Source of the DNA: Batillaria attramentaria
Lineage: Eukaryota > Mollusca > Gastropoda > Batillariidae
Assembly: GCA_018292915.2 (NCBI GenBank)
Contig: JACVVK020000147.1
Span: 1,162,501 to 1,226,500, forward strand
DNA length: 64,000 nucleotides
Direction of reading: 5' to 3'
This document shows positions 16,001 to 53,618 of the stretch, one piece after another. The first letter of the stretch is position 1; the number at the start of each line of letters is the position of its first letter. Under the pieces are notes generated by a model. It searched no databases. It saw only the letters and a list, made by a program, of their open reading frames with translations, and was not told the DNA's origin. Made by a program: the position numbers and the translations under genes.

Positions 16001-19000
16001 TATCTACCGTTATTTCGTTGTACCGTTTGACCGCTTTGCACGCCGAATATAGGAAAAAGGAAAGCGGTCAAGACATGATCATGAGGCCAATCCAGGTATC
16101 TACCGTTATTTCGTTGTACCGTTTGACCGCTTTGCACGCCGAATATAGGAAAAAGGAAAGCGGTCAAGACATGATCATGAGGCCAATCCAGGTATCTACC
16201 GTTATTTCGTTGTACCGTTTGACCGCTTTGCACGCCGAATATAGGAAAAAGGAAAGCGGTCAAGACATGATCATGAGGCCAATCCAGGTATCTACCGTTA
16301 TTTCGTTGTACCGTTTGACCGCTTTGCACGCCGAATATAGGAAAAAGGAAAGCGGTCAAGACATGATCATGAGGCCAATCCAGGTATCTACCGTTATTTC
16401 GTTGTACCGTTTGACCGCTTTGCACGCCGAATATAGGAAAAAGGAAAGCGGTCAAGACATGATCATGAGGCCAATCCAGGTATCTACCGTTATTTCGTTG
16501 TACCGTTTGACCGCTTTGCACGCCGAATATAGGAAAAAGGAAAGCGGTCAAGACATGATCATGAGGCCAATCCAGGTATCTACCGTTATTTCGTTGTACC
16601 GTTTGACCGCTTTGCACGCCGAATATAGGAAAAAGGAAAGCGGTCAAGACATGATCATGAGGCCAATCCAGGTATCTACCGTTATTTCGTTGTACCGTTT
16701 GACCGCTTTGCACGCCGAATATAGGAAAAAGGAAAGCGGTCAAGACATGATCATGAGGCCAATCCAGGTATCTACCGTTATTTCGTTGTACCGTTTGACA
16801 GCTTTGCACGCCGAATATAGGAAAAAGGAAAGCGGTCAAGACATGATCATGAGGCCAATCCAGGTATCTACCGTTATTTCGTTGTACCGTTTGACCGCTT
16901 TGCACGCCGAATATAGGAAAAAGGAAAGCGGTTTGTTTTACCGTTTACCGTTTTCAACATTGCAAATAGGAAAATGCACAACGGTTGGTTTTCCTGTTAC
17001 CGTTTTCGACATTGCAAATAGGAAAATGCACAACGGTTGGTTTTCCTGTTACCGTTTTCAACATTGCAAATAGGAAAATGCACAACGGTTGGTTTTCCTG
17101 TTACCGTTTTCAACATTGCAAATAGGAAAATGCACAACGGTTGGTTTTCCTGTTACCGTTTTCAACATTGCAAATAGGAAAATGCACAACGGTTGGTTTT
17201 CCTGTTACCGTTTTCAACATTGCAAATAGGAAAATGCACAACGGTTGGTTTTCCTGTTACCGTTTTCAACATTGCAAATAGGAAAATGCACAACGGTTGG
17301 TTTTCCTGTTACCGTTTTCAACATTGCAAATAGGAAAATGCACAACGGTTGGTTTTCCTGTTACCGTTTTCAACATTGCAAATAGGAAAATGCACAACGG
17401 TTGGTTTTCCTGTTACCGTTTTCAACATTGCAAATAGGAAAATGCACAACGGTTGGTTTTCCTGTTACCGTTTTTAACATTGCAAATAGGAAAATGCACA
17501 ACGGTTGGTTTTCCTGTTACCGTTTTCGACATTGCAAATAGGAAAATGCACAACGGTTGGTTTTCCTGTTACCGTTTTCGACATTGCAAATAGGAAAATG
17601 CACAACGGTTGGTTTTCCTGTTACCGTTTTCGACATTGCAAATAGGAAAATGCACAACGGTTGGTTTTCCTGTTACCGTTTTCGACATTGCAAATAGGAA
17701 AATGCACAACGGTTGGTTTTCCTGTTACCGTTTTCAACATTGCAAATAGGAAAATGCACAACGGTTGGTTTTCCTGTTACCGTTTTCAACATTGCAAATA
17801 GGAAAATGCACAACGGTTGGTTTTCCTGTTACCGTTTTCGAACATTGCAAATAGGAAAATGCACAACGGTTGGTTTTCCTGTTACCGTTTTCGACATTGC
17901 AAATAGGAAAATGCACAACGGTTGGTTTTCCTGTTACCGTTTTCGACATTGCAAATAGGAAAATGCACAACGGTTGGTTTTCCTGTTACCGTTTTCGACA
18001 TTGCAAATAGGAAAATGCACAACGGTTGGTTTTCCTGTTACCGTTTTCGACATTGCAAATAGGAAAATGCACAACGGTTGGTTTTCCTGTTACCGTTTTC
18101 GACATTGCAAATAGGAAAATGCACAACGGTTGGTTTTCCTGTTACCGTTTTCGACATTGCAAATAGGAAAATGCACAACGGTTGGTTTTCCTGTTACCGT
18201 TTTCAACATTGCAAATAGGAAAATGCACAACGGTTGGTTTTCCTGTTACCGTTTTCAACATTGCAAATAGGAAAATGCACAACGGTTGGTTTTCCTGTTA
18301 CCGTTTTCAACATTGCAAATAGGAAAATGCACAACGGTTGGTTTTCCTGTTACCGTTTTCAACATTGCAAATAGGAAAATGCACAACGGTTGGTTTTCCT
18401 GTTACCGTTTTCGAACATTGCAAATAGGAAAATGCACAACGGTTGGTTTTCCTGTTACCGTTTTCGACATTGCAAATAGGAAAATGCACAACGGTTGGTT
18501 TTCCTGTTACCGTTTTCGACATTGCAAATAGGAAAATGCACAACGGTTGGTTTTCCTGTTACCGTTTTCGACATTGCAAATAGGAAAATGCACAACGGTT
18601 GGTTTTCCTGTTACCGTTTTCAACATTGCAAATAGGAAAATGCACAACGGTTGGTTTTCCTGTTACCGTTTTCAACATTGCAAATAGGAAAATGCACAAC
18701 GGTTGGTTTTCCTGTTACCGTTTTCAACATTGCAAATAGGAAAATGCACAACGGTTGGTTTTCCTGTTACCGTTTTCAACATTGCAAATAGGAAAATGCA
18801 CAACGGTTGGTTTTCCTGTTACCGTTTTCGACATTGCAAATAGGAAAATGCACAACGGTTGGTTTTCCTGTTACCGTTTTCAACATTGCAAATAGGAAAA
18901 TGCACAACGGTTGGTTTTCCTGTTACCGTTTTTAACATTGCAAATAGGAAAATGCACAACGGTTGGTTTTCCTGTTACCGTTTTTCAACATTGCAAATAG

Positions 19001-20982
19001 GAAAATGCACAACGGTTGGTTTTCCTGTTACCGTTTTCAACATTGCAAATAGGAAAATGCACAACGGTTGGTTTTCCTGTTACCGTTTTCAACATTGCAA
19101 ATAGGAAAATGCACAACGGTTGGTTTTCCTGTTACCGTTTTTAACATTGCAAATAGGAAAATGCACAACGGTTGGTTTTCCTGTTACCGTTTTCAACATT
19201 GCAAATAGGAAAATGCACAACGGTTGGTTTTCCTGTTACCGTTTTCAACATTGCAAATAGGAAAATGCACAACGGTTGGTTTTCCTGTTACCGTTTTCAA
19301 CATTGCAAATAGGAAAATGCACAACGGTTGGTTTTCCTGTTACCGTTTTTAACATTGCAAATAGGAAAATGCACAACGGTTGGTTTTCCTGTTACCGTTT
19401 TTAACATTGCAAATAGGAAAATGCACAACGGTTGGTTTTCCTGTTACCGTTTTTAACATTGCAAATAGGAAAATGCACAACGGTTGGTTTTCCTGTTACC
19501 GTTTTCAACATTGCAAATAGGAAAATGCACAACGGTTGGTTTTCCTGTTACCGTTTTTAACATTGCAAATAGGAAAATGCACAACGGTTGGTTTTCCTGT
19601 TACCGTTTTCAACATTGCAAATAGGAAAATGCACAACGGTTGGTTTTCCTGTTACCGTTTTCAACATTGCAAATAGGAAAATGCACAACGGTTGGTTTTC
19701 CTGTTACCGTTTTCGACACTAAAGACTGGAAAAAGGAAAACGGTTCGTCTACCCTTTACCGTTTTCAACACTGAACATAGGAAAACAGTTCGTTTACCTA
19801 TTACCGTTTGTCCTTCCTGGTTTCAAGTAAAATTGCAATTTTTCAATGGGTTTTCAAAAGTGAACTCAGTGGTGTCATACAAAATATGGTTCATAATATA
19901 TGGTTTCTCACAATAATGCGATCTAAGTTTAAGTCTAACTTAACTGTCGAGTTAACTGACAGATGCGGTCTGCACTCAGAACGAAAGAAGAAATCAGATT
20001 CTATTTACTTTCAATCAATCGCTCCAACTGGGAAAAGTGCGTACATAGTCCACACTTTATCACTTTAATCATTTACTAACTTTCAGTCACTCGCCAAGGC
20101 TGCTAATACTTACCTGTTCAATTTTCAAAGTCTTCGACGTTCGCTCCAGTTCTTCCTTCACCAGGTTCCTGTGCACGTACTTGGCTAACCGGGCCTTCGT
20201 CTCGGGCAGCACGTGCTGGTTGCGCATGACCTGCTGGACCGTATCCGGCGAGAGGTCAAGGCCGGCGTAAGACAGCAAGAAGGAAGCCATGTCCTCGCGC
20301 GACAGCAAGCCTCCGGTGAAGACCTCGTTGGCTGTGGACGGAAGGTTGAGGTCAACGGCTTGCAGCGACGCCATGAGAAGCACCTGGTAGCGGAGTTTGG
20401 GCAGCGTCTGGAACTCTGGCTCCTGCAGGCGGAGTGATACTGTTGCTGCCAGATTCCCGCCAGCACTCAAACCTGTCACGTGACAACAAAATGGTCGGCA
20501 TTGTTAGTGGGTTTCAGGAGCATCGTTCAATTTCGTTTCCCCATCACTCCTAGCAAAGTGATCGTTCTTTTGCACATTTGGCCCTGTGATCTGGAACTCC
20601 GGCGCCTCCCTCTGAGATCAGGCACTCGCAGTCCATGGTTTATCTTAAAATCAGTTTTGAAAACCTTGTTTCAGCAGTCAAAACAGACTACCAGAACACG
20701 GCGCCAGTCCTAGCTGTACATATTTATTTCATTTTATTCACGTTTGTCTGTGTGTTGAAGGTGATTTTTGTAAGATAGTATCTGAAACTGCTTAGTAATA
20801 TGTTTGTATTATTGTAACACAACCACCCCACCCCCACGACCACCACCACCACCCCCGCCCCCATCCCGCTTCCTTTTTTGCCGCAAGACAGTCTTTGTTA
20901 CTCAGTTAGGCCGCTCTGCTACCCCTGCCTAGCTGCAGGATGGTCTCTGTTGCTTGTGCGGCTCCCCCACCCCCACCCCCCT

Positions 20983-21634: not shown

Positions 21635-24600
21635 CACCCACCCCCCTCCGCCACCCCCACCCCCTACCCCATCCTCCTAAAATTTGGAAGGAACATACAG
21701 TGTTTTGAATCCTTAAATCTAATACTCTTGTAAAGCGAAACGTACTCCACTGCTACCACTACCACCTGCGAGTGCCGAGCGATGTATCGGGACGGTTTTT
21801 CCAGCTCATCTGCAACACACAGGGAGGGAGACGGGGGGAGTAGGGTTTTGTAGTTATGTGTAAGTAAACGGCCACTATGCTACACGGCGAAACACCGAAA
21901 TTCGCAGGAAACAGAAGTACGGAGATTTGCCATTTTCAAAAGTGAGTAGCGCCCCGCATCGGCAGCTGGACGTATCTCGTTTTGTTAGCGTGAAAGGGGC
22001 CGTTTATCAACAACAGGAGATACTTCCAGGATGCAAAGATGTGTGCATGATCAGGGCGGGTAAACGCCCTTGGTTTGTGATACGCTGTGCGGTGGTGATA
22101 TTTAGGTAAAAACACACTAGCTTGCTTTTTTTTTCGGCAAGAGGGCATAATTTGACACCTATCGGCGAGATGTTAGTGTGCTAACTTACAGCCATTTTCC
22201 GAGCTTTACCTGCTCAAACGTATATGTACTTTGTCAGTGTGCTAGTCTGAGGTGATTTTTGTTGTCATGAAAAAGCGTGATTTTCGTGATTTTTGTGTTA
22301 TGTAGGTCGAGGTGCATGCCAGGCAGTCACAAAAAGAAGCAAGCTGCCAGTGAAGCTGGGACTTTTTGCACAGAGGTCGGACACAGGTGACTCAAGCGGA
22401 TTGTGTGAAATGGCTCTTTGGTCTAAAGAGAAAGTAGACGTGCATTACTTCAGTGAGGCCTGAGCGGAAAGGAGACATTCAAATTTGTTTAAACCCCTGT
22501 CAGGTGCGTGCCTTTGAATGGTCTGTTCATAGTATTAATTGCTTCTAGACTGAAATATTTTTAGGGGTGACTATGATGCCTGAGACTAATAGGGAATATA
22601 TAGGCATTTTGAGGCCCTGTGTATTTGTGTTCTTCGACCAGGTGAACACCCAAAGGAGCAAAATTGAACGGCAGTCGTTTCTTCTACACACCTCACAAAC
22701 AAAAACTTACGTTATCCTCAAAAGAAAGTTATTGACACTCACGGTAAATGGAGCCTACGGACCATCCCCCGCCGTGGAAATGCATGAGTGCAGGAGTGGG
22801 TACAGACGCACTGCGTGGTCGGTACACGCGTACCGGTACATCGTTAAACACGAGATCGGTCACCTGCACACACACACACAAAAAAACCAAGCACTTTATT
22901 CTGAAATACCCAAAGGGTCAAAACATGACAGTGGAAAACGGGCTTACTCGAGGTAAAGGGGGCCAGCTATTATTATGCCATTTCCTGCTCACAGATGGGT
23001 CTGAGCTGTTTTCTGAGCGCTCTTTCAGTTTTGGCGCTCCAACTTTTGGAATTCCCTGCCTGCAAATCTGAGAAATGCGCCTACACTGTCTGTTTTCAAG
23101 GGAAATCTTAAAATGTTCCTTTTTTTTTTTTTTTTTTTTTGCAAAGCCTTCCAGTAATGTCCTCAGCCGCAAGTTGGTCTTTTTGCTTAAGCGGCGTGAG
23201 GACACAAATAAGTAACTCCAGTAATTTCCTTTTTAACTAGTCAGACTCACCAGTGTATGTCTGTCCATCGTTGTAAGATGCGCGTGTGTGTCAGTGAGTG
23301 ACTGGCGCACTGAGTTTTTAAGTACAGACTTCAACATAAGTCAAGGACCACTTGCAAACACAAACAAACTCCTGGAAGATGTCCGTGCAGCACATGGTGG
23401 TTTTTTCAGCTTCAGCAAGCTTTGCAGGATGCATTGTTAACCCTTTAACACTTTCACAGCAAAAAATTTTGAAAGATTCCTTGATCTCTATTTTTTGGTG
23501 AATTCTTAAAAATTAGACCTGTTAAGGTGGTCCTTGACTTATGTTGAAGTCTGTATTTAAAGAAAAGTGCCGTACAAATACCTTTATCATAATATATAAA
23601 TATCCCTGTTCCCCCTGATGAGGTTTCTGGAAATAAACTGAACTGAACTCCATTTAACTGATGTTCATACCTCAAGGTCCGGATCGGCATCTGGGGGCGG
23701 TGTGGGTGACATGGCTTTCAGTATCGCACGGCCCGACTGGAACCGGTTCGTGTGACCGAACCATACTCGAGCAATCCATTCCTGCCGCAGAACACCATAT
23801 TAACCTCCAATCAGCGTTTCATAAGAAGTGTTTTAACAAATAGACTGGAGTGGTATTAATGCAGAACAACAACAAAAAAATTTATTGGGTCGTATCGTAG
23901 GAGTGTGAGATGTAGTTAGAGTGATGTAAGGTTAGATACGATAGCAGGGCTGCCACTTTCTGAGAGGCAAAAAGCCTGAAAATTGAGCCTCAAAATCTGA
24001 ATGGAAGGAAAGCCAGACTCCAGGGAGCCAGTGGAAGGAAGGACTTTGCCCAAAGAAAGTGAAAGCGGGGGGGGGGGGGGGGGGGGGCATCCTAGGATGA
24101 TTTTGACTTTACACACACTGTGTGTGATTTGAACTGTTCTCTATGGTATTCCAGTAAAACATGGTAAAACAGAAACAAACTTTGTCTAAAATGGTCTCAT
24201 ATTGCTTGGGAAGTGTATCATGTTGTTGTATGCTCTTGCACATGGTCATTCGGGATGATTGGTTCATGACGCATCAAAATAAACAAACAAAAATGACTCA
24301 CCATTTTTCAAAAACGTTTATTTTCCCCAGGAGAAGTCAGAACTGATTAACGAATTCCAAGATGGAAGTGCAAGATCACACAAAGTCTGAAACTAACAGC
24401 AAGACCCTGGGGTCTATAAATGGACTTGTCAGTGTTGTACAGTTCGATACTGGCTCAGATACTTTGGCGTGTCCTTTCACACATTACACACACAGTATAG
24501 CAATGCGAGAACATAATCATGATAATGCAGATGACCCCAAGCACTGTGATGAAAAGTCTGAAATTACCCACATCAGTTTTGTCTAGAACTCGCACACTGT

Positions 24601-27600
24601 TCTTTTCTTCTTGGAACTTTGGCAAAGAACGACCTGATATCTGAAGAACTTGTAGTTTTTCTTTTCAAGGTCTCACCCTCAGTCGACTTGATGGGGAGGC
24701 AAACAACAAAATGGTTTGGCTTCCACCTGGCCTCCGATGTCTGCATGCCATGGATATTGGTCCACATGATCCCATATTGTAATTTAGGAACCTGAACATC
24801 TGATTGGGCTACACGTGGGGTCAAAATGTTATTAAGATCCCCACGGACGGTGTGTCCAGCATACTGTGGATATATTGAATACAATGCTGTACCAATAATT
24901 GAAGAGACAGCTTGCATCTGCCAGATGCCCATGTACGTAGAGGGCACAACTGCTTGCATTGCCTCCTTTTCATAGACATCCTTTGTCTGCCCAGAATATT
25001 GTGAAAACTGGGCATACACATCACTTCGTGGACCTGCCAGGTAGTGGTCTTCATGCACTGCCAGTTCCACAGCAATACGCACACGCATTTCCTCATAGAG
25101 TGTATGCTCACTGCCGCTAGCCAAAAGTGACCCACACCTTGGGAGGCAATTACCATCACCAAAGATTCTTACGGGCATGAGGTCCACAGGGGCATCTGTT
25201 GGGTATAAACATTGGGAAAGAAGGTCTGGGCTGAATTCATCAGCCTGCAGCAATGACTGACACTGGATGGGCCATCTTTTAATTTCCTTCTCTGCCTTCT
25301 GGGAAATTTCTTGAAATTCCTTGAAAGAAGACGCCTCCTGCAGGTTTCTGCTGAGCTCTTTGAAATACTGACTCCTGTCACTGGAAGATGAAGGAGTATT
25401 TCCACTGGAGCAGCCCGCAAGACCTTCATCAGCCTGAAACAAAATTAACAGAATCGATTCTGTTTAAATACTTTGGGAACCAAGGAAAACTTCATCTTGT
25501 TGGGAAAACAAAGGGCAAACATATCATCTTTGTAACTATTACCATTACTGATTAGTATAAAAACTGAGTAACCCTGATTTTCAAGTTCTATACATTAATG
25601 ATTATCATCCTTCTGCCAAAGACTTAGGATGATATTCTGCTGCATAACTATTCTGGTGTTATGTGAAGACACAGGGAAACTCTCTCTCTCTCTCTGACAC
25701 ACAAGCACACAGGTTGAGGGCCTACCTGACCTACCTTTTGTTCAGAGTTTGTCGCCTTGCCAGTACTACAGCTGCTTGTAGAGGCCTTTCCCCTGAAGGT
25801 GGTTGAGCCTGATGTAGCCTTCCCTCTGGAGCTGCCTGCTTCACCATTGTCAGTCTGAAAGTGAAACAAAATATCGTACAATAGCTTAGTTTGGGGAACC
25901 GGTGGCAGTCACTTTGACAGTGGGATGGGGGTAGGGCATAGTAAACTGTATTATGTTTGCTATTTCATATTACAATCAATAATAATTATTCTCATATCAT
26001 CTTTGTAACTATTACCATTACTGATTAGTATAAAAATTGAGTAACCCTGATTTTCAAATTATCCTTCTACCAAAGACTTTGGATGATATTCTGCTGCATA
26101 ACTATTCTGGTGTTATATATGTGAAGACACAGGGAAACTCTCTCTCTCTCTCTCTGACACACAAGCACACAGGTTGAGGGCCTACCTGACCTACCTTTTG
26201 TTCAGAGTTTGTCGCCTTGCCAGTACTACAGCTGCTTGTAGAGGCCTTTCCCCTGAAGGTGGTTGAGCCTGATGTAGCCTTCCCTCTGGAGCTGCCTGCT
26301 TCACCATTGTCAGTCTGAAAGTGAAACAAAATATCGTACAATAGCTTAGTTTGGGGAACCGGTGGCAGTCACTTTGACAGTGGGATGGGGGTAGGGCATA
26401 GTAAACTGTATTATGTTTGCTATTTCATATTACAATCAATATATATATTAATAATTTAAATTATTCTCATATCATCTTTGTAACTATTACCATTACTGAT
26501 TAGTATAAAAACTGAGTAACCCTGATTTTCAAGTTCTATACATTAATGATTATCATCCTTCTGCCAAAGACTAAGGATGATATTCTGCTGCATAACTATT
26601 CTGGTGTTATGTGAAGACACAGGGAAACTCTCTCTCTCTCTCTCTCTCTGACACACAAGCACACAGGTTGAAGGCCTACCTGACCTGCCTTTTGTTCAGA
26701 GTTTGTCGCCTTGCCAGTACTACAGCTGCTTGTAGAGGCCTTTCCCCTGAAGGTGGTTGAGCCTGATGTAGCCTTCCCTCTGGAGCTGCCTGCTTCACCA
26801 TTGTCAGTCTGAAAGTGAAACAAAATATCGTATAATAGCTTAGTTTGGGGAACCGGTGGCAGTCACTTTGACAGTGGGATGGGGGTAGGGCATAGTAAAC
26901 TGTATTATGTTTGCTATTTCATATTACAATCAATAATAATTATTCTCATATCATCTTTGTAACTATTACCATTACTGATTAGTATAAAAATTGAGTAACC
27001 CTGATTTTCAAATTATCCTTCTACCAAAGACTTTGGATGATATTCTGCTGCATAACTATTCTGGTGTTATATATGTGAAGACACAGGGAAACTCTCTCTC
27101 TCTCTCTCTGACACACAAGCACACAGGTTGAGGGCCTACCTGACCTACCTTTTGTTCAGAGTTTGTCGCCTTGCCAGTACTACAGCTGCTTGTAGAGGCC
27201 TTTCCCCTGAAGGTGGTTGAGCCTGATGTAGCCTTCCCTCTGGAGCTGCCTGCTTCACCATTGTCAGTCTGAAAGTGAAACAAAATATCGTACAATAGCT
27301 TAGTTTGGGGAACCGGTGGCAGTCACTTTGACAGTGGGATGGGGGTAGGGCATAGTAAACTGTATTATGTTTGCTATTTCATATTACAATCAATATATAT
27401 ATTAATAATTTAAATTATTCTCATATCATCTTTGTAACTATTACCATTACTGATTAGTATAAAAACTGAGTAACCCTGATTTTCAAGTTCTATACATTAA
27501 TGATTATCATCCTTCTGCCAAAGACTAAGGATGATATTCTGCTGCATAACTATTCTGGTGTTATGTGAAGACACAGGGAAACTCTCTCTCTCTCTCTCTC

Positions 27601-30600
27601 TGACACACAAGCACACAGGTTGAAGGCCTACCTGACCTGCCTTTTGTTCAGAGTTTGTCGCCTTGCCAGTACTACAGCTGCTTGTAGAGGCCTTTCCCCT
27701 GAAGGTGGTTGAGCCTGATGTAGCCTTCCCTCTGGAGCTGCCTGCTTCACCATTGTCAGTCTGAAAGTGAAACAATATATCGTACTACAATAGCTTAGTT
27801 TGGGGAACCGGTGGCAGTCACTTTGACAGTGGGATAGGGGGTAGGGCATACAATACTGTATTACGTTTGCTATTTAAATATATATCAATTTAATAATTAT
27901 TAGTACCAAAATTGAGTAACCTAGGCCTCATAACACCATTCATTCATCGTTAAGGTTCTGTCAACATTTTCGTTGCATCATTACTCTTGTGTGCATGTGA
28001 AGACACAGCCAAATTCTCTCTCATACACTCACATAAAAATTTAAATCATGTATGCTCACCAACCTTTTCTTTGGGTTTCTCTGCCACGTTTGTCTCTTTC
28101 CCAGACATCTCCCCTATGTGCTCCTCTGTCATCTGTGAAGCCATATATCTAGAATGGCTGTATTTGACGGCACGGCGCATCTTTTCTGAGACATTCATTG
28201 TTGCAGCAGTCTGGCCTAAGGCACATAGTCTTTGCTTAATGACAGCTAGGGCCTCATAGTGTTCAACAGTCAATGCAGTCCGATCTTCTTCCACGATGTC
28301 TCCCATGATGTTGAAACTACTCTCCACTATTGGCCCACTGAAGACCGTCAACAATCCTTTGACAAGGGTGGTAAGGGTGGGATAGCACAGCTGCCCTTTG
28401 TGTTCCATCTTCATGACCTTGGACCACCAGTGTGAGTCAAGCCTGAAGTTCTTGGAGGTCTCATCTGCTGAGATTTTGCTGACATTTTCATCACACCCAT
28501 ACTGTTTCACCTCGCGGTCAAGTTTCCCAAGGTCTTCTATTGGGATGACATTTGGGAGTCGTTTTGCCAAGTTCATCACTGATCGCGGTGTTCCTTCGCT
28601 TCGTTGTAGCCCAGGATCAAGAGCTGAGAGGGCAATCAAGTTTTTGTTCAGCAGCGGCAACTTCTTGATGAACATAGCACCTCTCTTGTAGGCACTTCGC
28701 AAGGTGCTGTAAAATCTGGGAAGCCATACAGAATGCTTTGCTTTATCCCTCCGGCAGAGAAGAAGAGGAGTGTAGCAGTAGTCTCCAACACCAAGCTCAC
28801 TGTCTGGAAGTTGAATGGAATCATCCTCAACATCAATGTTGAAGAGCGCATGAGCATCCTCAAGAGGCAATGACTGTGACTGGATGAAATTTTTAAAATA
28901 CTGTTTGATCAAATGGAACATTTCTCCATGTAGTTTATGGACCATTGGCTTTGTGTTTTGAAACAGCAATGCATATCCTTCAAATTCGCGCAGAATACCC
29001 CGGTGCAGCTGAACAGCCACAGTTGTCTGTGCCTTCTTGTGGAACAAATGCAGAAGTATTCTGTCCTTTCTTTCTGTGCTGGTGGACGATTTCTGCTGCT
29101 GTCGCTGGCTGTGCAGTAACTGCTTGATCTTTCTTGCTTGCTGGGTGTTCACCTTGTTTCGTGAAAAGATTTCTTGTATTTCTTTCTCGAAAGACTTCTG
29201 CTCTTCAGCTGTCAGGAAACAGGAATAGTATATGGAGAGGGCATCACTCACTTCATCCAGTCTATCTGCCACTTGACGCATCTGAAGGAACCTGATTTGA
29301 AAAAATTATATATCCACAGTATCAGTTTCTCAGTTGTAGCTTTATACTTCTGAAATCTACTTTCAAATTTATCTTTTTCTCTCAAAGAAAAATAAACAAA
29401 CAAAGAAGTTATTATGTCACCAAAATTAACTCTCAAAGAGAAGAACCAGCTGTAAGTTGTAACAGAGCAATTTGATTCTGAAGTTTACCAGAAGACAGAA
29501 GTGTAGAAAATACACTGTTTTGTTTTCTATCAGAAATGGAGTGTTGAACTGACATAACAAAGAACACTCGCATTACAATTAAAAGTTTTTTTTTTAAAAA
29601 CTACCTACTTTATTTTTTTTTTAATTTCTAACTGATGTAAATTGTAATGACTAATCCAAGTGTTTTTTTCCCACCGAATTTTGTATACAGTATTTAGCAT
29701 TTTCGCATTATACATTTTCTGAACAAATAACCAGCACTTTGTGAAAAGCAGGTTGATTTGGCCAACCCTGCTAAGACGTTTGATTTCACAATATTCAGCT
29801 ACCATTTGTGTCACCATGCATGGTAAACTAAATAGTGCTTGACCATGATAAAGAAAAAGGCAGTAGCAAGTACACAATTCGCCCTCTTGGAATTGGATCA
29901 CGAGTCCGACACTCTCCTGAGCTTTTCCTGTATCCCTGCTAAACTAGAATAACAATACCAAACAATGCACACACACATACCTGGAAACCAAGAGATTACA
30001 TGCGGACATGTACCTGTTGGAAATTGGTCGAATCAGTCTCTTTCCACCCATACCCATGAGGCTCTGGATCTCTTGAAAGATGCTACTGGCTTTTGGAGAC
30101 TCCTCAATGTCATAGTACAGGTCACTGGCCAGTGCCTGCAGAGGCAGAAAATCCTTTTCCATGACTTCAAAGAAGCGACTGGCAGTAGTGTGAACCTGAT
30201 GCACAGTTTCTCCACCAATGTCAAGGAGATGCTCGTTAGCTCTCCTTGCCAGACTCTCAACACCTCCCTTGGAGCCCCTCATCACATTACAATTGTCAAA
30301 GAGGCAGGACAACACTTGCTTCCACTGAAGCCCACGACACTGCAAGATGTCACTAACTGCCTCAAAGATATTGACAGCAGTTCCAATATTTACGACTCTG
30401 GATCCAAGGTGATCTAAAGAGACTTTGCAGAGGTCATCGTCATAGTACTGGACCATGACATTCACAATCTTTTCATTTGCAGCATTGGTTGCCTCGTCAA
30501 TGTTCAGTGAAAAGACAGTTTGTCTCAGTTTCTCATCGACGTCTTCCATGAACGCATGTGCAACCCCGTAAGTTGTCGTGTAGGTGGCACATGAGCGAGC

Positions 30601-31866
30601 CATCGACATGGATGCAAGTGCTTTCAGGCAGTTATCCGTTTTGGTGAGTCGACGACAAAGTGCTAAGAGCTTGTCAGAAAGTGAAAATGGAAGGCAATGT
30701 TCTGAAATGAAAGAGCACACGATCGCCTTCAGCTCCGCAACTGTGTCTGCAACACCCACTGCTGTAGCTATTGTTGGTGTCGCTCCGTCCAAAACAGTGT
30801 TCTCTTGTAGGGTTGTAACGATGGTGCAATGTTTGGGCTTGCTGGCATGTTTTTTTAAGGCATTCAATCCGGCTGAGCCATACACAACCACCTTGCGACA
30901 AGCCGTACAGTACGCCTCACCTTGCTCCGAAATTTTCCTACACCACAAGCTCAGAGGATGGCCGAGTTCATCTGTCTTCGTAAGCCAATCCCAGTTCCAT
31001 TTGTTTCTAACATCCTTTTCAAGTTCGGCAAGGAAATCACGGTCTTCTTTTTCCCTCAGGAAAGTGAGAGCATTCGCCATTCTATCGCCAGAAATTTTCT
31101 TCAAGTCTTCGTGTGGTGGTTGGTGGTTGAGCCATGTCTTCATGTCGCCCGCGTGGTGATAAAAAGAATGCGGAGCAGACGAAAAACTTTACTGTGATTG
31201 GAGGAAAAAGGCTTAATACAACCTACATTTTTATTTTTGACCAATCAGATGAGCGGTCAGGCTTCGGCCCGCAAAGACAGCTTACCGCAGTGCTATCGGG
31301 AACGTCCCCGACGAATATGAGGCGCAAAATGCACCTTACCCGGGAAGGCCGACGGTCCAGCGATAGACACAGACTCGCGGTTTTTGGCCCCAAAAAAGCC
31401 GGAAAAGCCGGAAAAGCCGGAACACGCTTTAAAAAGCCGGAAAGCTCTTCACAGCCGGTTCAAAAAGCCGGAAATCAGGCCACAGGAGGAAGAGTGGCAG
31501 CCCTGCGATAGTCTCACTGACTGGTGGGGCAGGCAGAGCTGAATTAGCAAGGTCGTGCTCTCAAACAGTCACTGATCGACTAGTAGACACACTCACACCC
31601 TCTCTCTCTCTCTCTCTCTCTCTCTCGGACTATTTGAATGTTCAACCGATCGTGCAAAGTGTAAACAACATTGCATTGCATTCTGAGCTGTAGTAATCAC
31701 CAAGAAAGAGTTCCGTCAAGTAGTTAGACAATTGCAGCGAAGGGGAAACTATTGCTGTGTACGGACTACCCTGGTGGGAGTGCCGCCGGATTCATTGTTA
31801 TGGGTCAACGGCCTAACAATAAATGATTGAGTTTGAGTCTCACGGACGCACGCACGCTCACCGTGA

Positions 31867-42972: not shown

Positions 42973-44089
42973 CGTATCCCGGCTTGGGCCAAATATTTGT
43001 GCTGGCCTTTTCATCCTTGCCCCATCTTTGATATCACCCGTATGTGGTGGAAAAGGACGTTAAACACCCAAACACCCCACCCACCCTCTCTCTCTCTCTC
43101 TCTCATTACTCTTTTGTTTGTTTATTAATGACCTGCCTCTACAACTTACTGACAAACAGGTTGTGTGCGATTTGTTTGCGGATGACGCAACTGTCCATAC
43201 ACCTGGTAAAAATTTAGCAGCTGTTAACTCACGCCGTCAGCAAAGTTTACATGAGGTCTCAGATTGGTGCTCCTCCAACTCCATGATTTTAAACCCATCA
43301 AAAACCAAATGTATGATTATAGCGACTCGCCAGAAGCATCAGCTCTCCCCCTGTCTCGACCTGTCCTGAACGACACCACCATAGAGCAGGTGACTGAACA
43401 GCGCCTACTAGGACTCACTGTTGACAATCAGCTTAGATGGCAGTCCCACATCAACAATGTGTGCAAGCGGGTTTCTAAAAATTTGAGCTGAGGTTTATCA
43501 CGGACATCGATTCACGGACAATGTTTTATAATGCCCATATAAAATCTCACATCGACTATGTATCAACAGTGTGGGATGGTTCAAGCGACGTTCACATGAA
43601 AAGATTGAATTCTCTGCATAGGAAGCAGCGAAGTTGCTGTTGTCTGATCCAAATCTTTCCACGGATCAGAAGCTTAGCACACTAGAAATGCTTCCCCTGA
43701 AACTTCAGCTTGACTATAACAAATGCATATTTATGTACAAACTGTACAAACAATCCAGCCCGGCTTATCTTGTCAAATTATTTTCAAAAACATTCTGTCA
43801 ACAGTCCAGATCCGGGCAACATTTTAAGGTTCCATTTCCTCGGATAGATATGTACAAATCAAGCCTCTCATATTCAGGCAGTTTTCTTTGGAACTCGCTT
43901 CCAGAAAATATCCGAAATGCAAAATCACATTCAAGAACAGTCTCTTCAAACATATGTCAAAACTAAATCATCCATAATCATCATATATTATCCTATGGAA
44001 AGCATTCATGTGCCTGCTAGCATTTTTTTTTTCAAATGTTTTTGCTTTTGATGACTTATTTCGAATGTTTGACATGTATTGATGAATTC

Positions 44090-53108: not shown

Positions 53109-53618
53109 AATGTATCCTAACACTACTACTGACACCACTTTTACAGAACCAAAAATCGTCGGCCAAAAAGTGGCATTGCGCATATAAAGGGTGGGTGGGT
53201 GTTTGGGAGGTTTAACGTCCTTTTCCACCACATACGGGTGATATCAAAGACGGGGCAACGATGAAAATCCCAGGACCATTATTTCACCCCAGCCTTGTTA
53301 CGAACTCGCGACTCGAGCATTAAAAGTCCAACGCTGTAACATTGCGCTTATAAAACAGTGAGTCCATGATACGTAAAAGGCAACTCAGATCCCTCTGCTG
53401 ACACCAGCATCCGTCACATTCCACAGGTGAAGACTAAGACACTAGGTCTTTATCTTTATCGTGGTCCACTTCTTTGGAGACTGAAAACTGGACCACTAGA
53501 CCAATGTCTTTTAATACCGTTCTGCCTTTTCACGTTCGTCATGCTGAGTCGGTTGACTCATTCAAAACTGTGTTGAAGACACATCCTTTCCGGCTGCATT
53601 ACAAAGACTGAATCAGTT

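Follow-up and report, generated by a model that had tools for sequence, protein, structure and literature searches.

Can a cut-and-paste DNA transposon carry a ubiquitin protease in the same polypeptide as its transposase, and what would such a protease do there? The question was raised by a locus in the mud-creeper snail Batillaria attramentaria, within a 64,000-nucleotide stretch of contig JACVVK020000147.1 (assembly GCA_018292915.2, positions 1,162,501 to 1,226,500; hereafter the window, to which unlabelled coordinates refer). An initial annotation made from the letters of this stretch had placed at 23945..31505 an intact hAT transposon, its one minus-strand gene joining a BED/hAT transposase to an OTU protease. 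Our analysis indicates that these positions very probably hold a complete 7,561-bp transposon of the hAT superfamily, whose gene encodes a transposase and a C-terminal OTU domain as a single fusion. By its 6-bp target duplication the element is hAT6-like and, judged from its copies, recently mobile.

The element ends in 13-bp terminal inverted repeats, CAGGGCTGCCACT on the left (23945..23957, plus strand) and AGTGGCAGCCCTG on the right (31493..31505, minus strand). The two matched at 13/13 positions, no other such 13-mers occurred in the window, and the repeats begin with CAG, as do the short terminal inverted repeats of the hAT superfamily. The duplication CGATAG flanked the element on both sides (23939..23944 and 31506..31511), as the initial annotation had reported along with the perfect repeats. 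The window contained 420 non-simple inverted 13-mer pairs lying 2-12 kb apart, and one other place had a flanking match of at least 6 bp. The ends were therefore not settled by chance within the window alone; they were settled by a copy on contig C617, where the same gene lay within identical termini at a new site. This copy was 6,598 bp long and was flanked by a different 6-bp duplication, TCTAGG, showing an independent insertion. Aligning other genomic copies at their termini, the check proposed at the outset, thus upheld the boundaries.

The genome searched was an assembly of 715,342,989 bases in 863 contigs (published as 863 scaffolds, 0.715 Gb, in PMC10382545). When the left end (206 bp) was used as the query, full-length matches of 98-100% were found at three places, namely the window (C147), C534 and C617; the right end (306 bp) matched at 97-100% at the same three places and at 81-88% elsewhere. 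The candidates scored in these searches were 40 of 1,099 for the left end and 40 of 433 for the right end. The flanks and the duplication of the C534 copy were identical to those of the window, indicating one insertion represented on two contigs, with C534 most likely the alternative haplotype. When a tandem array of exons was set aside, comparison of the window copy with that of C617 over about 5.2 kb showed 1 substitution and 7 gap events, and such near-identity indicates that movement was recent. Many short derivatives shared approximately the first 143 bp of the left end or 192 bp of the right end. Among 44 such loci, 11 had no flanking duplication, 2 repeated the same element and 31 were distinct with a duplication, which was 6 bp long in 29, 4 bp in one and 8 bp (a CA repeat) in one. 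The 29 loci carried 21 different 6-bp sequences; some loci therefore have a sequence in common and do not represent independent insertions. Short derivatives on C274 (five) and C607 (one) all had the duplication CATCTG, suggesting that a larger unit holding the element was duplicated.

The 8-bp duplication usual for hAT was not found at either full-length insertion site, both of which had 6 bp, as did 29/31 of the short derivatives. A 6-bp duplication defines the hAT6 group (Kapitonov and Jurka 2007, as cited in PMC12730594), and groups with 5-, 6- and 7-bp duplications are counted as hAT in the latter source. The element resembles hAT6 in its CAGGG termini, Hermes-type core and 6-bp duplication, and differs from it in the OTU domain and repeated linker exons.

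The predicted minus-strand gene encoded 1,278 residues with no stop. Exon 1 (30014..31143) supplied the start codon, a BED-like C2-H2 finger and the first half of an RNase H-like core, and ended at the donor CAG/GTACAT in phase 2. This donor was supported by relatives reading ISNR/FLQM or similar across the junction; an alternative at 29981 was rejected, as the relatives favour 30014. The remaining hAT core and the putative C-terminal dimerisation region were encoded by exon 2 (28064..29291). Five linker exons of phase 0-0 followed: R1 (27632..27760, 43 residues), R2 (27149..27268, 40 residues), R3 (26680..26808, 43 residues), R4 (26195..26314, 40 residues) and R5 (25735..25854, 40 residues). 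The last exon (24573..25433, 286 residues, stop codon included) carried the OTU domain and a C-terminal tail, and an AATAAA polyadenylation-type signal lay within the element at 24317..24322, on the minus strand like all the exons. The junctions 30014/29291, 28064/27760 and 25735/25433 were GT-AG and phase-compatible. The open, phase-compatible exons and three junctions proposed earlier were thus retained, together with the motifs NIDEAT, LFDNCNVM, ESSFNIMGD, DGNCLPR and NHFVVC, all in frame; the five linker exons between 27760 and 25735 had been missed.

The linker array (25680-27885) consisted of the five tandem exons and their introns in two alternating unit types, one of 460 bp and the other of 492-494 bp; within a type the units were at least 99% identical. 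When the two-exon units U1-U2 and U3-U4 (952 and 954 bp) were compared, 951 positions were identical, 1 was mismatched and 2 were gaps, indicating that duplications enlarged the array very recently. The C617 copy had three linker exons versus five in the window copy, and any number keeps the frame because all five are of phase 0-0. As read from these exons, the tether between hAT and OTU parts is variable, of low complexity and built of repeated exons, and an array of such near-identical exons illustrates how the distance between two fused enzymes can differ from copy to copy.

The finger of the transposase part, C79-x2-C82-x16-H99-x5-H105 (30826..30909, minus strand), was preceded by NKWNWDWL. 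It showed C2-H2 spacing; in Pfam, zf-BED was not matched and only weak matches to other fingers appeared. The hAT core was assigned to the Hermes type from its profile and from a relative's fold, with an RNase H core and a helical insertion. Of the three putative catalytic residues on the minus strand, the first Asp (NIDEAT, 30496..30498) adjoined TIDLWT of Hermes in a weak HMMER stretch, and the Glu (VESSFNIMGD, 28322..28324) aligned by HMMER with Hermes SERTFS. The second Asp (LFDNCNVM, 30295..30297) was assigned by its motif alone, which is conserved in relatives. Five subterminal CCGGCTTTT motifs lay beside the gene's 5' end (31394..31471, minus strand), and a single GGCTTTTT was present on the same strand near the opposite element end (23969-23976, minus strand). 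Subterminal motifs serve as transposase-binding sites in hAT biology, and these are possible sites of that kind.

The OTU exon gave a predicted structure with a predicted local distance difference test score (pLDDT) of 86. All 50 of the 50 PDB matches listed were OTU proteins, and the closest folds among them were A20-type enzymes, a class of deubiquitinases that includes A20, OTUD7B/Cezanne, TRABID and VCPIP1. These are cellular signalling enzymes, unlike the protein described here, and identity to them was 10-16%. From the aligned ranges of the structural matches, the OTU core occupied exon residues 78-252 (24678..25202, minus strand). Conservation was read from an alignment (A4) that included 24 of the 36 available sequences with an OTU; the 12 omitted include fragments without the Cys region. 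Cys96 of DGNCLPR (25146..25148, minus strand) was Cys in 24/24 rows, His241 of NHFVVC (24711..24713, minus strand) was His in 22/24 with a gap in the other 2, and Asn95 was present in 24/24. An upstream Asp, D70, was found in 22/24 rows (1 His, 1 gap). The catalytic triad of A20 provides the model for an Asp in this position, and D70 could be the candidate third triad residue. Across the family, Pfam OTU matched 8/23 members at E<=1, the best scoring 20.2 bits against a cut-off of 23.3; this cut-off is a threshold of detection and not a defining trait of OTU proteases. Taken together, the fold and the conserved residues suggest that the OTU domain is probably an active deubiquitinase.

A search of the genome with OTU exon DNA found 3 places (3/3 candidates scored). 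All were inside element copies, none with the OTU exon beyond the terminal repeats, and two were the same insertion site. The search with OTU protein gave 41 matches (49/49 candidates scored), 3 of them this element, and the surroundings of 4 others (C306, C406, C420 and C214) were examined. At C306 a hAT core, a linker and an OTU domain were read in a single uninterrupted frame, an arrangement that argues against separate genes; identity was 39% over 579 columns (E 7.8e-129), in an alignment with the window protein from residue 468 to 1013, counted as if the protein had one linker exon. Pfam detected no hAT domain at C306, and the 3.3 kb examined there did not contain the window's terminal inverted repeat. 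Further fusions were seen in other proteins. P0036 of Babylonia areolata (1,135 residues) had a BED-like finger, hAT and OTU; in Nucella lapillus, P0001 combined a hAT C-terminus with OTU, and Nucella P0002 combined a finger with OTU. P0019, a Trinity transcript by its source name, joined a finger and hAT start to an OTU end, with the middle missing. These independent fusions, including the single frame of C306, indicate that the hAT-OTU join does not arise from mispredicted splicing. The same OTU family also followed vertnin-like N-terminal parts in long open frames at C406 (L065), C420 (L066) and C214 (L067), and a DDE_1 transposase in P0040 (DDE_1 149 bits) and P0044 (37.6 bits).

In the mechanism we propose, the finger would bind the subterminal repeats and the hAT core would excise and insert the element. 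The tethered OTU, as an active A20-like deubiquitinase, would remove ubiquitin from the transposase or from repair or chromatin proteins at the break, prolonging the life of the transposase or directing how the excision site is repaired. We give this joint reading, a hAT-OTU fusion whose active deubiquitinase aids transposition, a probability of roughly 0.6; that the transposase itself is the main substrate is a more tentative proposal, clearly below even odds. Several observations weigh against the joint reading. The fused transcript and the protease activity are predictions from sequence. D70 is only a candidate for the third triad residue, with no acidic residue or Asn two positions after the His (HFV), and Pfam gave no OTU match to the window's OTU exon. 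The PF05699 dimerisation domain scored 18.3 bits in the window against a Pfam cut-off of 21.4 (26.2 bits in P0026 and 27.4 bits in P0036). Exon 1 was broken in C617 by one 1-bp deletion, and in C534 it had 15 gap events and 10 mismatches (net 16 bp longer). Finally, 10 of the 12 proteins from the full-length search (P0026-P0035) had no GNCL motif, all ten having been aligned, seven of them also inspected over their whole length, and P0033 being incomplete in sequence; P0024 and P0025 carried OTU. In general, hAT transposition can therefore do without the OTU domain.

Exon 2 was identical in the window, C534 and C617, and the OTU exon differed from the window by one base in C617 and was 2 bp shorter in C534, where the frame ended differently. 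The exon 1 deletion of C617 may be an assembly error, as gaps outnumber substitutions; the damage in C534 is less easily explained in this way. Of the three assembled copies the window copy alone had a fully open gene, so that the word intact in the initial annotation applies to it and does not extend to C534 and C617.

The rival that survives best is that the OTU acts on host DNA-repair or replication proteins, editing the ubiquitin marks present where the element excises or inserts. A repair role of this kind was proposed by the authors describing Ginger1 (PMC2836005). The C-terminal tail of the window protein contained SDIRSFF (24624..24644, minus strand), and the pattern [ILMV]xx[FY][FY] occurred near the C-terminus in 11/46 sequences, compared with a mean of 1.5 and a maximum of 5 in shuffled tails (500 shuffles). 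We take this pattern to resemble the consensus of the PCNA-binding (PIP) box. Gln at the PIP position was present in the OTU-less hAT relatives P0026 and P0028. However, it was lacking in the window tail and in the other OTU-bearing hAT proteins, the 11 tails were related rather than independent (two identical, two near-identical), and binding by the tail is a prediction. The PIP-box likeness is thus a lead only, and repair proteins as targets are possible, with the odds well below even. A catalytically dead OTU, or one that merely binds ubiquitin or contacts protein, would fit the HFV sequence and the divergence from Pfam OTU. We consider it unlikely, at about one chance in a handful, given the invariant Cys and Asn95, the His in 22/22 non-gap rows and D70 in 22/24, with A20-type enzymes as the best fold matches.

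An improbable alternative is that the OTU is passenger cargo, a host sequence recently trapped by one element and without function in transposition. Its absence from 10/12 proteins found in the full-length search favours this; however, the hAT-OTU order recurred in three genera and in two different families of the Batillaria genome, and the catalytic residues were kept. In the OTU tree (30/46 sequences; the 14 lacking a GNCL motif were excluded, as were P0024 and P0025), the hAT-linked rows (4, two identical) needed one change in 66% of bootstraps, and a single hAT-linked clade was not rejected (p-AU 0.358), so that these data neither show nor reject a single OTU origin. In the hAT tree (11 rows), long-branched Babylonia grouped with the OTU-less P0034 and P0035 (100/100), apart from the window clade, which suggests two OTU gains, or losses, or exchange. 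A tblastn search for a phage origin of the OTU gave no match in the phage collection; a viral fold search with the OTU listed proteins of baculovirus (VP80), nairovirus, fish herpesvirus and giant viruses, from which no origin was drawn. That an OTU gene merely adjoins a hAT gene, as two genes or an annotation artefact, is very improbable. In its favour, the join depends on predicted introns and P0024 runs into a host esterase; against it, C306 is one frame, all junctions are phase-compatible and P0019, despite its missing middle, has a BED/hAT N-terminus together with a C-terminal OTU.

A broader, speculative scheme seems to us only slightly more probable than passenger cargo. An A20-like OTU module would have been taken up repeatedly by unrelated mollusc mobile-type proteins (hAT, DDE_1, vertnin-like), and in hAT elements it lies immediately ahead of the PIP-like tail. 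These hAT-OTU proteins would be clamp- or fork-directed deubiquitinases that switch ubiquitin signals on repair factors or PCNA as the element is excised, and would thereby link transposition with replication.

The fusion of a transposase to a C-terminal OTU has a precedent in Ginger1 DNA transposons, also reported from the mollusc Aplysia (PMC2836005). Their core is of the Gypsy-integrase type, whereas that of the present element is of the hAT/Hermes type. Helentrons are described with OTU and/or VTD deubiquitinase domains (PMC9741609, PMC4067079), the OTU being given as additional open reading frames (PMC4067079). They likewise are DNA transposons with a deubiquitinase-like domain of their own, but have a rolling-circle Rep/helicase instead of terminal inverted repeats, target-site duplication and a hAT core. 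The DDE_1 and vertnin-like fusions of Littorina, Mya and Batillaria share the OTU family in their C-terminal part and differ in their non-hAT N-terminal parts. Among the papers listed in literature searches on transposon-borne OTU, none showed a hAT-OTU fusion, although Repbase may record one, and the main text of a domain-fusion paper (PMC12062965) contained neither OTU nor hAT. The initial annotation likewise knew of no described hAT-OTU fusion; what would be new here is the hAT carrier, the deubiquitinase-type domains being already published for Ginger1 and Helentrons. A transposon-borne OTU may interfere with the host's control of protein tagging or DNA repair during movement. For hAT, one transposase (Hermes) has been solved and transposition can be assayed in the laboratory, and a hAT carrier would make it testable why transposons carry ubiquitin proteases; the element is recent, and its OTU domain can be expressed alone.

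The deposited B. attramentaria proteins P0024 and P0025, whose contigs correspond to C534 and C617, matched the window protein at 96% in the full-protein search, where the query carried 11 extra residues from donor 29981; for the OTU part, searched with the correct donor, the figures were 100% and 99%. P0024 equalled residues 328-1167 of the window protein with zero mismatches, and P0025 had 8 mismatches in 852 aligned columns, with gaps at the linker exons it lacks. The P0024 model quits the OTU exon early and continues into a host esterase (Abhydrolase_3), whose exon starts at window 23781, 164 bp outside the element and on the minus strand like the transposon gene. This junction looks like an annotation artefact; exon trapping is a possible alternative. 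Ab initio, transcript and protein evidence were combined in the published annotation (PMC10382545).

Two further repeats were seen in the window. The other 13-mer place with a flanking match belonged to a longer, perfect 41-bp inverted repeat (43025-43065 and 53210-53250, 10 kb apart), around which no flanking duplication was found and which marks a possible other element. Repeats at 18271-19104 translated to CTTVGFPVTVFNIANRKM-type peptides.

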